DNA of 64,000 nt from Amycolatopsis thermoflava N1165 (GTDB taxonomy: Bacteria > Actinomycetota > Actinomycetes > Mycobacteriales > Pseudonocardiaceae): contig NZ_KI421511.1 in assembly GCF_000473265.1 (NCBI RefSeq), forward strand, positions 62,001 through 126,000, written 5' to 3'. The notes below the pieces were generated by a model. It saw only the letters and a program-made list of their open reading frames with translations. It was not told the DNA's origin and made no database searches. Position numbers and translations under genes: made by a program. Shown here in pieces: positions 39,995 through 43,822 of the stretch. Positions within the stretch are counted from its first letter, which is position 1. Each line of letters begins with the position of its first letter.

Positions 39995-40486
39995 ATGGCC
40001 CTGGCTGACATCGAGCTGCGCACGCTCGCCGGTGAGACCGCGACGCTGGGCGGGCTGGGCCGCAAGGCCCTGCTCGTCGTGAACGTCGCGTCGAAGTGCG
40101 GCCTGACGCCGCAGTACGCCGCGCTGGAGCGGCTGCAGGAACGCTACGGGGACAAGGGATTCTCCGTCGTCGGGTTCCCGTGCAACCAGTTCGCGGGCCA
40201 GGAGCCGGGCAGCGCCGAGGAGATCGCCACGTTCTGCTCGGCGACCTACGGCGTCACGTTCCCCATGTTCGAAAAGATCGAGGTCAACGGCCCCGGCAGG
40301 CACCCGGTCTACGCCGAGCTGGTGGAGACGCCGGACGCCGACGGCGCGAGCGGGGACGTGCAGTGGAACTTCGAGAAGTTCCTCGTCGACCCGGACGGCA
40401 AGGTCGTGGCGCGCTTCCGGCCGCGGACCGACCCGGAGGCCCCGGAGGTCGTCGAGGCTATCGAAGCGGTGCTCCCGGCCGCCTGA
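39995..40486 (+). CDS. Glutathione-peroxidase-family thiol peroxidase
   Basis: 163-aa peroxidase. The peroxidatic residue is Cys in VNVASKCGLTPQY (selenocysteine in some animal enzymes), with the conserved FPCNQFAGQEPG and WNFEKFLVD supplying the second Cys, Gln, Trp and Asn of the active site. FPCNQF with a Cys suggests thioredoxin- or mycoredoxin-dependent recycling, since actinomycetes lack glutathione. GGAGG precedes ATG 39995. A 14-bp palindrome follows the stop. Confidence 0.92.
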   Translation: MALADIELRTLAGETATLGGLGRKALLVVNVASKCGLTPQYAALERLQERYGDKGFSVVGFPCNQFAGQEPGSAEEIATFCSATYGVTFPMFEKIEVNGPGRHPVYAELVETPDADGASGDVQWNFEKFLVDPDGKVVARFRPRTDPEAPEVVEAIEAVLPAA

Positions 40487-40490
40487 ATCG

Positions 40491-40504
40491 GTCAAAGCTT
40501 TGAC
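40491..40504. promoter_or_regulatory. Perfect 14-bp palindrome GTCAAAGCTTTGAC downstream of gpx
   Basis: It lies between the stops of gpx and the convergent MarR gene. The same core TCAAAGCTTTGA recurs on the other side of the MarR gene at 41206-41217, at the promoter of the MBL operon. The shared core identifies it as a probable binding site of that MarR protein rather than a terminator. Confidence 0.7.
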
Positions 40505-40558
40505 AAATCCGGCGGGGCATCGTAGTGACCTGCGCCACGGACGCCAAGGGGCCAGTTC

Positions 40559-41098
40559 CTAGAACCGCCGCTTGGCGTCCATCGCCGCGGGGCTCGTCGT
40601 CAGCTTCTCCAGCAGGCCGATCAGGATCGTCTGCTCCGGCTTGGTCAGCGCGTTGGCCCACGCCTGCTCGCGGGCGTTGTGGGCCTCGTACGCGCTGGTG
40701 ATCGCCTCGTGGCCGGCCTCGGTGAGGTTCAGCAGCACCGCGCGCCGGTCGTGCTCGGCCTGCTTGCGGGACACGAGCCCGTCCCGCTCCAGCGTGTTGA
40801 CCAGCGCGGACACCGCCGCGCGGCTCATCCCGGACAGCTGTGCGACCCGCTTCGCCTCCATCGGGCCGGCCAGCCACAGCGCGAACAGGACCCGGAACCC
40901 GCCCCAGCTCCACCCGCGCGGCCGGTGCACGGTCGACTCCCAGTCGTACACGAGTGCGCTGGTCAGGCGGTGCAGCGTCAGACCGAGGCGCATCGCGGTG
41001 GCGTCGACCGCCGGCAGTTCGGCGGTCGTCCGCGCGATCGCGTAGTCCACGAACGTCAGGTAGTCCAGCTCGTCGGGGGCAGCCGGTTCTGCGGTCAT
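40559..41098 (-). CDS. MarR-family transcriptional regulator of the MBL/FAD-hydroxylase operon
   Basis: 179-aa MarR protein with the winged helix WGGFRVLFALWLAGPMEAKRVAQLSGMSRAAVSALVNTLERDGLVSRKQAEHDRRAVLLNLTEAG. The DRR wing tip and ~35-residue N-terminal extension match MarR regulators of aromatic-catabolic genes. ATG 41098 is preferred over 41131. It is divergent from the MBL operon, and the TCAAAGCTTTGA palindrome at 41206 lies at that operon's promoter. Confidence 0.87.
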   Translation of the reverse strand: MTAEPAAPDELDYLTFVDYAIARTTAELPAVDATAMRLGLTLHRLTSALVYDWESTVHRPRGWSWGGFRVLFALWLAGPMEAKRVAQLSGMSRAAVSALVNTLERDGLVSRKQAEHDRRAVLLNLTEAGHEAITSAYEAHNAREQAWANALTKPEQTILIGLLEKLTTSPAAMDAKRRF

Positions 41099-41205
41099 GC
41101 GCCCCAGGCTAGGCGCTGCCCGCCCGCTCATCCGAACAGCGTCCTGATTCGGAAGTAGTCTTCCCTTGCGGAGTGGTCCGCGTTACTCTGACGTCCGTCA
41201 AATAG

Positions 41206-41222
41206 TCAAAGCTTTGATCAAA
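41206..41222. promoter_or_regulatory. MarR operator: overlapping palindromes TCAAAGCTTTGA and TTTGATCAAA
   Basis: The 12-bp palindrome at 41206-41217 overlaps a 10-bp palindrome at 41213-41222, and a further TCAAA half-site precedes them at 41198-41202. The block ends immediately before the AAGGAGGTG ribosome site of the MBL gene (start 41234). Occupancy would block transcription or initiation. Confidence 0.75.
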
Positions 41223-41233
41223 GGAGGTGCGGG

Positions 41234-42196
41234 GTGGCTCAGAAGTCGTTCGCCTCGTCCGGCGACCTGACGGAGAAGGAGCAGACCCTGGAGGTGCTCG
41301 AGGACGGGGTCTACGCGCTCACCGCGGAGGGCGACCCGAACGTCGGCGCCATCGAGGGGGAGGACTTCCTGGTCTGCTTCGAGGCGCTGGCCACCCCGGT
41401 CGCGGCCCAGGACTGGCTCGCGAAGCTGCGCGAGCACACCGACAAGCCCGTCCGGTACCTCGTGCTTTCGCACTACCACGCGGTGCGCGTGCTCGGCGCC
41501 TCCGCGTTCGACGCCGAGGTGATCGTCGCGCACGAGAACACCCGCGCCCTGGTCGCCGAGCGCGGCAAGGAGGACTGGGAGAGCGAGTTCGGCCGGATGC
41601 CGCGGCTGGCCAAGGGCGCCGAGTCGGTGCCCGGCCTGACCTGGCCCACCCTGACCTTCTCCGACCGGCTCACCATCGACCTCGGCGGCGACCGCGGCGA
41701 CCTCGTGCTGCAGTACTGCGGCCGCGGGCACACCGAGGGCGACATCGTGGCGTGGCTGCCGCGCCAGAAGATCCTGTTCGCGGGCGACCTGGTGGAGGCC
41801 GAGGCCGCGCTCTACACCGGCGACGCCTTCCACCGCGACTGGGCCTCGGGCACGCTGGACCGGGTCAAGGCGTTCGGCGCGGAGGCGCTGGTCGGCGGCC
41901 GCGGCGCGGTCAGCAGGGGCCGGGACGCCGTCGACGCCGCGATCGAGCAGACCCGCGGCTTCCTGGACGTGATGATCCGCGAGGTCGGCGCCGTGCAGCG
42001 CGCGGGCGGCACGCTCAAGGAGGCCTTCGAGCGCACCCACGCCGCGCTGGCCCCGCAGTACGGGCACTGGCCGATCTTCGAGCACTGCCTGCCCTTCGAC
42101 GTCTCCCGCCTGTGGGACGAGCTGTCCGGCATCGAACGCCCGGTCATCTGGACCGCGCAGCGGGACCGCGAGGTCTGGGACCAGCTGCAGGGCTGA
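41234..42196 (+). CDS. Metallo-beta-lactamase-fold hydrolase
   Basis: 320-aa MBL-fold protein. Its metal motif reads LVLSHYHAVRVLG: two of the His of HxHxDH are present, but the Asp-His pair is replaced by Val-Arg. YCGRGHTEGDIVAWL and ILFAGDLVEAEAA keep the later His and Asp. This pattern resembles MBL proteins found with aromatic catabolic genes, but zinc ligation at the second site is probably altered. GTG 41234 follows AAGGAGG. It is the first gene of an operon with the FAD hydroxylase (3-bp gap). Confidence 0.82.
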   Translation: MAQKSFASSGDLTEKEQTLEVLEDGVYALTAEGDPNVGAIEGEDFLVCFEALATPVAAQDWLAKLREHTDKPVRYLVLSHYHAVRVLGASAFDAEVIVAHENTRALVAERGKEDWESEFGRMPRLAKGAESVPGLTWPTLTFSDRLTIDLGGDRGDLVLQYCGRGHTEGDIVAWLPRQKILFAGDLVEAEAALYTGDAFHRDWASGTLDRVKAFGAEALVGGRGAVSRGRDAVDAAIEQTRGFLDVMIREVGAVQRAGGTLKEAFERTHAALAPQYGHWPIFEHCLPFDVSRLWDELSGIERPVIWTAQRDREVWDQLQG

Positions 42197-42199
42197 GCG

Positions 42200-43822
42200 A
42201 TGACGACGACAGACCCCTCGACCAGACATCACCGTGTGGCGGTGATCGGCAACGGCCCGGTCGGCCAGACGACCGCGCTGCTGCTGGCCAGGTGGGGCGT
42301 TCCGGTGCTGCTGCTGGACGGGCGGCCGGAGCGCGACCTGGTCGGCTCCAAGGCGATCTGCCAGCAACGCGACGTGCTCGACGTGTGGGAGGCCGTGGGC
42401 GCCGGGCGGCGGATCGCCGCCGAGGGCGTCACCTGGACCACCGCGCGCACCTTCCACCGGGACCGCGAGTTGTTCGCCTACTCGATGGCCGATCCCGGCC
42501 GCTCGGCGTTCCCGCCGTTCGTCAACATCTCCCAGGCCCGCACCGAGGAGATCCTGGACGAGCGGATCGCCGCCGAGCCGCTGATCGACGTGCGCTGGGG
42601 CCACCGGGTCACCGGCATCGCCCAGGACGATGACGGCGTCACGCTCACCGTCGACGGCCGGGGCGACGTGCGCGCCGACTACGCGGTGGCGTGCGCCGGT
42701 GCCCGCGGCGACGACATCCGCCGGATGCTCGGCGTCGGCTTCGGCGGGCACTCCTTCGACGACCGGTTCCTCATCTGCGACATCCGTGCCGACATGCCCG
42801 GCTGGGCGCAGGAGCGGCGGTTCTACTTCGATCCGGAGTGGAACCCCGGCCGCCAGGTGCTGATCCACCCGTGCCCCGGCTCGACGTTCCGCATCGACTG
42901 GCAGGTCCCCGGCGACTACGACCTCGCCGCCGAGGAGGCCAGTGGCGCGCTGGACGCCCGCATCCGCGCGATCATCGGCGACCAGCCCTACGAGATCGTG
43001 TGGAAGTCGGTGTACCGCTTCCACTCGCGGGTGGCCGACCGGATGCGCGTCGGCCGGGTCCTGCTCGCCGGGGACTGCGCGCACCTGGTGTCGCCGTTCG
43101 GCGCGCGCGGCCTCAACTCCGGGGTCGGCGACGCCGAGAACGCGGCCTGGAAGCTCGCGTTCGTCCTGCACGGCTGGGCGGGCGAGGAGCTGCTGGAGTC
43201 CTACCACGACGAGCGGCACGCGGCGGCGCTGGAGAACATCGCCGTTACCACCGCCACGATGGACTTCCTGGTGCCGCAGACCGACGAGCAGCACCACCGG
43301 CGCCGCTCGGTGCTGGAGGCGGCGGCGACCGATCCGGCGGTGCGGGCGCAGGTGGACTCGGGGCGGCTGGCCGAGCCGTTCTGGTACGTGGACTCGCCGC
43401 TGACCACGCCGGCGGCGACGCGGCCGTTCACCGGCCGCCCGCCGCGCGGCGAGGTGCCGCCTGCCGGTCCGGGGATCCTGGCGCCGGACGTGCCGGTGTC
43501 GGTGACCGGTTCCTCGTGCGGCCGGTTCCGCGAACTGGCCCGCGACGGCGTCCTGCTGCTCACCACCGACGGGGTGGACCTGGACCCGTCCGCGGACGCA
43601 GTGGACACCGGGGCGCCGATGCGGATCCTGCGCCTGGCCGAGATCGACGTGACCGGCGTGCTCGCCGAAGCGCTGGACGCGCGGCCCGGCGAGGTGTGGG
43701 TGATCCGCCCGGACGCCTACGTGGCGGCCGTCCTCACCGACGTGGCGGAGGTGCCCGCGGCGGTGAACCGGGCCCTCGGACAACCCGCCGCCGAACGTAT
43801 CCTGCCCGGTGCCGGCACGTGA
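42200..43822 (+). CDS. FAD-dependent aromatic hydroxylase (MhpA/PheA type)
   Basis: 540-aa flavoprotein monooxygenase of class A. VAVIGNGPVGQTTALLLARWG is the FAD motif, GARGDDIRRMLGV with DIRADMPGWAQ spans the substrate-domain border, and VLLAGDCAHLVSPFGARGLNSGVGDAENAAWKLA is the GD motif binding the ribityl chain. The ~130-residue C-terminal thioredoxin-like domain matches 3-(3-hydroxyphenyl)propionate and phenol hydroxylases. The probable reaction is NAD(P)H-dependent ring hydroxylation; the substrate is not identified. Confidence 0.88.
   Translation: MTTTDPSTRHHRVAVIGNGPVGQTTALLLARWGVPVLLLDGRPERDLVGSKAICQQRDVLDVWEAVGAGRRIAAEGVTWTTARTFHRDRELFAYSMADPGRSAFPPFVNISQARTEEILDERIAAEPLIDVRWGHRVTGIAQDDDGVTLTVDGRGDVRADYAVACAGARGDDIRRMLGVGFGGHSFDDRFLICDIRADMPGWAQERRFYFDPEWNPGRQVLIHPCPGSTFRIDWQVPGDYDLAAEEASGALDARIRAIIGDQPYEIVWKSVYRFHSRVADRMRVGRVLLAGDCAHLVSPFGARGLNSGVGDAENAAWKLAFVLHGWAGEELLESYHDERHAAALENIAVTTATMDFLVPQTDEQHHRRRSVLEAAATDPAVRAQVDSGRLAEPFWYVDSPLTTPAATRPFTGRPPRGEVPPAGPGILAPDVPVSVTGSSCGRFRELARDGVLLLTTDGVDLDPSADAVDTGAPMRILRLAEIDVTGVLAEALDARPGEVWVIRPDAYVAAVLTDVAEVPAAVNRALGQPAAERILPGAGT

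Follow-up and report, generated by a model that had tools for sequence, protein, structure and literature searches.

Gene organization of the marR locus

The window, i.e., the whole 64,000-nucleotide stretch of Amycolatopsis thermoflava N1165 DNA that was analysed, contains a MarR-type regulator gene (marR) located between a glutathione peroxidase gene (gpx) and a presumed catabolic operon. The following features were annotated or predicted at this locus, with no strand given for the palindromic sites.

39995–40486, plus strand: gpx, glutathione peroxidase gene (Pfam GSHPx, 4.8e-38), convergent with marR
40489–40506: predicted distal operator (22.1 bits), containing a 14-bp palindrome (40491–40504) with a 12-bp core (40492–40503)
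40511–40538: another conserved stretch between gpx and marR, GGCG ... TGACCTGCGCCAC, with a possible stem GGCG/CGCC; possible terminator
40519–40547, minus strand: promoter-like TTGGCG-17-TACGAT, pointing to the distal operator and in antisense orientation to gpx
40559–41098, minus strand: marR regulator gene, start ATG at 41098 and stop at 40559 (Pfam MarR, 8.5e-11, and MarR_2, 4.8e-10)
41106–41111, minus strand: likely marR -10 box TAGCCT, 7 nt before the ATG, read by eye; leaderless-type promoter
41161–41189, plus strand: probable MBL operon core promoter, TTCCCT-17-TACTCT, with a -35 that fits the consensus at only 3 of 6 positions
41203–41220: predicted promoter operator TAGTCAAAGCTTTGATCA (34.6 bits), core at 41206–41217
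41234–42196, plus strand: MBL-fold hydrolase gene (Pfam Lactamase_B, 1.6e-11), heading the presumed regulated operon
42200–43822, plus strand: FAD-dependent aromatic hydroxylase-type monooxygenase gene (Pfam FAD_binding_3, 4.3e-59; NCBIfam PRK08132.1 above cut-off)

The marR product carries a winged-helix MarR domain (PF01047, 8.5e-11; PF12802, 4.8e-10), which places it in the MarR family; the longest ATG frame of the gene begins at 41131. Among the matches listed, the closest in the marR alignment were those of A. tucumanensis (100%) and of A. thermalba and A. deserti (97%). A marR ortholog with at least 79% identity was found in 18 of 19 same-genus (Amycolatopsis) genomes, and the MBL gene in all 19. 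The genes look like genes of aromatic-compound catabolism, given the FAD hydroxylase, an MFS transporter and, in genome G012, a homogentisate-dioxygenase-like gene nearby on the same strand, and the MarR-type repressor of Amycolatopsis appears to control genes for the breakdown of aromatic compounds. MhaAB (3-hydroxyphenylacetate hydroxylase) was considered as a name for the MBL/FAD pair and dropped, because MhaB is given as 60 aa in an excerpt of PMC3053370.

Two palindromes on either side of marR

A perfect 14-bp palindrome, GTCAAAGCTTTGAC (40491–40504), begins 4 bp past the gpx stop (gpx end, 40486); a distance of 54 bp separates it from the stop codon of marR (40559, minus strand). The original prediction held that its 12-bp core is shared with the MBL promoter; the core, TCAAAGCTTTGA, does occur both at 40492–40503 and at 41206–41217, and the expected arrangement of one site at a promoter and one beyond the 3' end of marR, about 700 bp apart, was found with a centre-to-centre distance of 714 bp. 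The promoter operator is placed just 3' of the predicted MBL transcription start. In the window, two matches to the core with at most two mismatches were detected versus 0.18 expected from shuffles, and none of 100 shuffled windows held two core matches. The exact 12-mer has only two copies in the 8.69 Mb genome (2 contigs), flanking marR on both sides, with one-mismatch matches at three further positions. The sequence TCAAANNTTTGA has three genome copies, the third of which is located at the promoter of an MFS transporter gene and ends 31 bp before that gene. When the window was scanned with an 18-bp motif (see below), the two sites scored 34.6 and 22.1 bits, and the next-best position 5.9. 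The shuffles, the genome-wide rarity, the motif scores and the background hit rate given below rule out a chance origin of the pair.

Overlapping half-sites had also been claimed to cluster at the MBL promoter. A second palindrome, CTTTGATCAAAG (41212–41223), is indeed present and results from the operator extending into the ribosome-binding sequence AAAGGAGG; a conserved half-site cluster was rejected, since many relatives lack the extra half-site. Within the convergent gap, the distal site lies beside the gpx stop in the closest relatives and abuts or overlaps the marR stop in others. In the window it is not at the start of an adjacent gene, as the operator of a neighbouring gene would be; two gene ends converge there.

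The operator motif across relatives

We built a symmetric 18-bp matrix from 26 distinct 18-mers of MBL promoter sites in 41 of 50 loci (consensus TARTCAAAGCTTTGAYTA); 3' sites were not used in building it, and 13 bits served as the cut-off for a site. The survey covered 101 distinct marR loci, those outside the genus being a sample (80 of 165 candidate loci, with 297 genomes of the family and 397 of the order taken from larger groups). A 5' site of at least 13 bits was found in 67 of 67 loci with marR next to MBL, a count that holds partly by construction because the matrix was built from part of those loci. Outside the 5' and 3' regions, the matrix gave 8 hits of at least 13 bits in 458,211 positions, some of which are probably real sites at other promoters. 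Two loci outside all counts had a 5' site of 24.7 bits (L185) and a 3'-side site of 12.1 bits, below the cut-off (L187). Both sites behave like operators of the MarR encoded between them: they accompany marR across relatives and are decayed or absent in the genus genome in which marR was not found. As judged from sequence evidence only, a second site for the same repressor lies in cis with the main operator, as in lac (22.1 and 34.6 bits).

Operator-like sequences, TAGTAAATGTATGTACTA and TAGTTAATATCTAAACTA, were also observed at both ends of the gene for a paralogous MarR (~ 48% identical) in the genome of the window (G000; L079, 5729–5746 and 6317–6334). The 3' site of the paralog lies ahead of a gene resembling homogentisate dioxygenase (Pfam HgmA, weak but above cut-off), which makes the paralog an ordinary case. 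In the same genome, a weaker site of 19.1 bits, CCGTCTAAGCTTTGATCA (L081, 4512–4529; G000:C1, about 5544511), is possibly a further MarR target.

Conservation of the distal site

Within the genus, a 3' site was found in 14 of 15 loci with marR-MBL adjacency, in 13 of them within 200 bp of the marR stop; the other, also counted, lies 357 bp from it, directly after the gpx stop (L013). In A. rhizosphaerae (L022), where marR and MBL are adjacent, the motif scan detected no 3' site. None of the three same-genus marR loci without an adjacent MBL gene (L017, L020, L023) has one. Outside the genus, the site was present within 200 bp in 9 of 52 MBL-adjacent loci and absent from 43, and it was found in 2 of 31 loci without MBL next to marR (30 scanned). 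In eight aligned same-genus rows, the ten half-site columns are invariant, with variation at the centre and in the immediate flanks. All ten half-site bases are intact in 10 of the 14 genus sites; the remaining sites are changed at one position (L016, L021) or at two (L015, L019).

In G005, G012 and G014, the MBL operon is relocated behind an operator of its own (30.6, 29.3 and 27.4 bits, respectively), and the marR locus has no 3' site. In G012 and G014, the relocated operon follows an MFS gene 80–88% identical to that of G000. In the marR tree, which has weak support at many forks and places one outgroup row within the genus, L017 groups with L020 and L023 stands apart, so that the loss of the 3' site with MBL relocation would amount to about two events. 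In genome G010, marR was not found at E 1e-30 or better and gpx and MBL lie side by side; the promoter operator before MBL has decayed to 12.5 bits, and the distal site was not found. Within the genus, these comparisons support retention of the predicted distal site at loci that link marR to the MBL promoter. The predicted site is at the same time dispensable, as most MBL-adjacent loci outside the genus and L022 do without it.

Several observations were made at the rearranged loci. The gpx/MBL junction of G010 (L175, 6300–6700), where marR is missing, contains an inverted repeat, CGTTACCAATCCGACC ... GGTCGGATTGGTAACG, perhaps the site of another regulator. Two operators 59 bp apart (L176, 9000–9017 and 9059–9076) lie upstream of the relocated MFS-MBL operon of G012. 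The relocated MBL-FAD operon of G005 stands behind a different operator (L080, 7463–7480) and is followed by genes that look like alcohol and aldehyde dehydrogenase genes.

Possible termination in the gpx/marR gap

The palindrome had been suggested to act in termination at the gpx end. This was not borne out: as RNA it folds with -3.9 kcal/mol (z -1.3), the terminator scan gave no terminator-like site there, and the stable G+C-rich hairpin with a T run that defines an intrinsic terminator is lacking at the palindrome. The stretch GGCG...GCGCCAC at 40511–40538, kept in eight aligned rows, is possibly a better terminator candidate; its stem pairs never vary and therefore offer no covariation support. 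The fold of the whole gap was not clearly better than those of shuffles (z 0.24 on the plus strand and -1.52 on the minus strand). The sequence GTGACCTGCGCCAC (40526–40539) may be a Crp-like site.

Promoter elements at the 5' and 3' sites

On the minus strand of the window, the distal operator lies 12 bp downstream of TTGGCG-17-TACGAT, a layout resembling that of the MBL promoter. The same element occurs in L007 and one like it in L009, and it is absent from the close relatives L008 and L010. We scored as a -10 element any TANNNT ending 5–18 bp before an operator (chance, 1.3% per strand); in this test and in the spacing tests, L021 and L072 were treated as co-directional and the near copy L007 was included, with gene calls around the 3' sites made by a simple composition heuristic. 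Before the 5' operator, a -10 element was present in 31 of 34 loci, a chosen subset; of the three loci without one in this range, L018 and L021 carry it at a distance of 4 bp.

A 3' site before a co-directional gene was found in eight loci (L021, L072, L107, L109, L120, L141, L144 and L156), one of them in the genus. The genes behind these sites encode an MFS transporter in A. marina and Actinophytocola, a CoA-transferase in A. arida, and a small protein together with a symporter in Prescottella; further such sites occur in one Streptomyces, in L072 and, before a DUF1707 gene, in L021 (A. sp. GM8). Six of these eight sites have a -10 element; L109 has none, and in L021 it is on the other side of the operator. 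The 3' sites that lie between convergent genes (in 13 genus loci and in L066, L077, L125 and L139) are mostly promoter-less: a -10 element lies upstream in 3 of 17 (the window, L007 and L009) and on the far side of the operator in only 1 of 17 (L016; chance, 2.6%). Because 14 of the 17 convergent loci have no upstream element, we rejected the idea that distal sites generally have a promoter. The predicted distal sites thus fall into two classes: those that would serve as ordinary operators for the gene behind them, and those in convergent gaps, most of which have no promoter element.

The promoter-like element of the window (40547–40519), with the operator 12 bp downstream and its counterparts in L007 and L009, would fit a distal site that represses a transcript starting beside it, either antisense to gpx or of a small gene, much like the CRP site that lies between convergent genes in PMC4892627. 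Considering that the element is absent from 14 of 17 convergent loci, including L008 and L010, we regard this as very improbable. The distal site could also be left over from a gene that once followed marR co-directionally and has since moved. The co-directional genes behind such sites in eight loci, the persistence of the minus-strand element in G000, L007 and L009, and the third genome-wide site of G000 at the MFS promoter would all agree with such an origin. Against it, 14 of 15 genus loci keep a 3' site, whose half-sites are intact in 10 of 14 while the flanks have diverged, and the expected promoter element is absent from 14 of 17 convergent loci; we consider this origin quite unlikely. 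The low frequency of -10 elements in convergent loci (3 of 17 versus 31 of 34 at 5' operators) instead points to a conserved, mostly promoter-less auxiliary operator, for which, with no -10 element upstream in 14 of 17 loci, looping or roadblock are the natural readings.

Spacing, looping and roadblock

Centre-to-centre spacings within the genus were 714 bp (L006–L010, L014), 693 bp (L011, L012), 1019 bp (L013), 672 bp (L015, L016), 613 bp (L018), 653 bp (L019) and 631 bp (L021). For the eight convergent genus configurations, the spacings lean towards whole helical turns of 10.5 bp (R = 0.74, Rayleigh p of 0.009), with 8.6% of arbitrary periods doing equally well. Adding four convergent loci of other genera gave p 0.008; overall, 8.6–9.0% of arbitrary periods between 6 and 20 bp were as good. 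Nine configurations including L021 gave p 0.003 (5.6% of periods as good); six co-directional spacings of other genera gave p 0.43. The configurations share ancestry, and the best-fitting period was 10.18 bp. In a jitter test, p was 0.009 for the genus alone and 0.09 after the addition of five loci, of either kind, from other genera. The spacing weakly supports looping. The distance from marR to the 5' operator was larger where a 3' site is present (Mann–Whitney p = 0.003, 22 versus 41 loci, a comparison confounded by kinship), a difference that L018 and L021 do not show. According to an excerpt of PMC3737563, the functional form of MarR proteins is a homodimer, so that bridging would need a dimer–dimer contact or a helper.

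In a simpler scheme, MarR at the distal site would do no more than halt RNA polymerase between the convergent genes and would have no interaction with the promoter site; gpx transcripts would be kept out of marR and vice versa, and a ligand would open the gap, whereupon antisense transcription would lower MarR. In all 13 genus loci that combine a 3' site with a neighbouring gpx, this site is in the convergent gap, after the gpx stop in the closest relatives, and the 18-bp operator includes the marR stop codon in L018, L019 and L021, where a roadblock could truncate the marR message, as for LacI. LacI roadblocks at O3 have been reported (PMC3711431, in excerpt). Against the scheme stand L017, L020 and L023, where the MBL operon has moved and the site is missing though marR still meets gpx, as well as L013, with its site 357 bp from the marR stop, and L021, which has no gpx match. 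We judge a roadblock acting by itself rather unlikely. In the window, the distal site lies past the marR stop, and a roadblock there would not truncate MarR. The likely leaderless promoter of marR is away from the 5' operator, and an additional route of autoregulation would make sense.

Proposed role of the distal operator

That both sites are real, conserved and tied to marR, with the distal one mostly promoter-less, is supported by the comparison of predicted sites across relatives. In the mechanism that we propose, MarR bound at 41203–41220, just past the predicted MBL start, would repress the MBL-FAD-monooxygenase operon, and a small ligand, as expected from the family, would release it. 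The distal site (40489–40506) would be an auxiliary operator, in most relatives without an evident promoter of its own, acting in cis with the promoter operator like lac O3. MarR held there may strengthen repression, through bridging to or clustering with promoter-bound MarR, and/or may form a ligand-controlled roadblock in the gpx/marR gap. We put forward this lac-O3-like auxiliary operator tentatively, at slightly less than an even chance; binding, ligand, bridging and roadblock are inferred. In a more elaborate form, which we consider unlikely, MarR dimers would be bridged around their own gene; with a single ligand event, the catabolic promoter would open and the marR/gpx barrier would lift, changing marR expression from both ends. 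The looping or roadblock control originally suggested gains from the predicted operator behaviour and the mostly promoter-less distal site; it loses from the insecure phasing and from the -10-like element in the window itself.

Comparison with known systems

Operator spacing in lac is short. Unlike the lac operators, the two predicted sites described here are 714 bp apart and would be bound by a dimeric MarR-type protein rather than the LacI tetramer; in addition, marR is divergent from the operon and the second site is found beyond its stop codon, between convergent genes. In lac, LacI is reported to autoregulate by a roadblock at O3 that truncates the lacI message; as far as the excerpted text of PMC3711431 goes, the likeness is that of a main promoter operator with a weaker second operator in cis bearing on the repressor's own transcription. 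For NadR, a MarR-family repressor with several operators, as predicted for the MarR of the window, a distal operator at the Neisseria meningitidis nadA promoter has been described, and looping proposed with the help of IHF (PMC2791445, in part); the NadR operators lie in one promoter region according to that partial text, whereas the Amycolatopsis sites bracket the regulator gene. SCO3205 of Streptomyces coelicolor is likewise an actinobacterial MarR divergent from an enzyme gene and has two operators; in the excerpt of PMC3737563, both are intergenic, upstream of the two genes, with a different consensus (TTnAAnnnTCAA). A CRP site controlling aatS is also a transcription-factor site between convergent genes (PMC4892627, excerpt); that site drives a promoter, whereas a promoter element is mostly absent at the distal sites described here.

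No description of this operator pair was found in the open-access literature searched, where TCAAAGCTTTGA turned up in three papers whose titles show no relation to it. To our knowledge, lac is the main system in which an auxiliary operator is known to sit at the end of the gene for its repressor. Searches restricted to upstream regions miss 3' operator sites of this kind. The natural series of spacings from 397 to 1019 bp, together with lineages missing one or both sites, would provide material to separate looping from roadblock, and a conserved, mostly promoter-less auxiliary operator for an actinobacterial MarR would extend the lac-like design to a very large regulator family.
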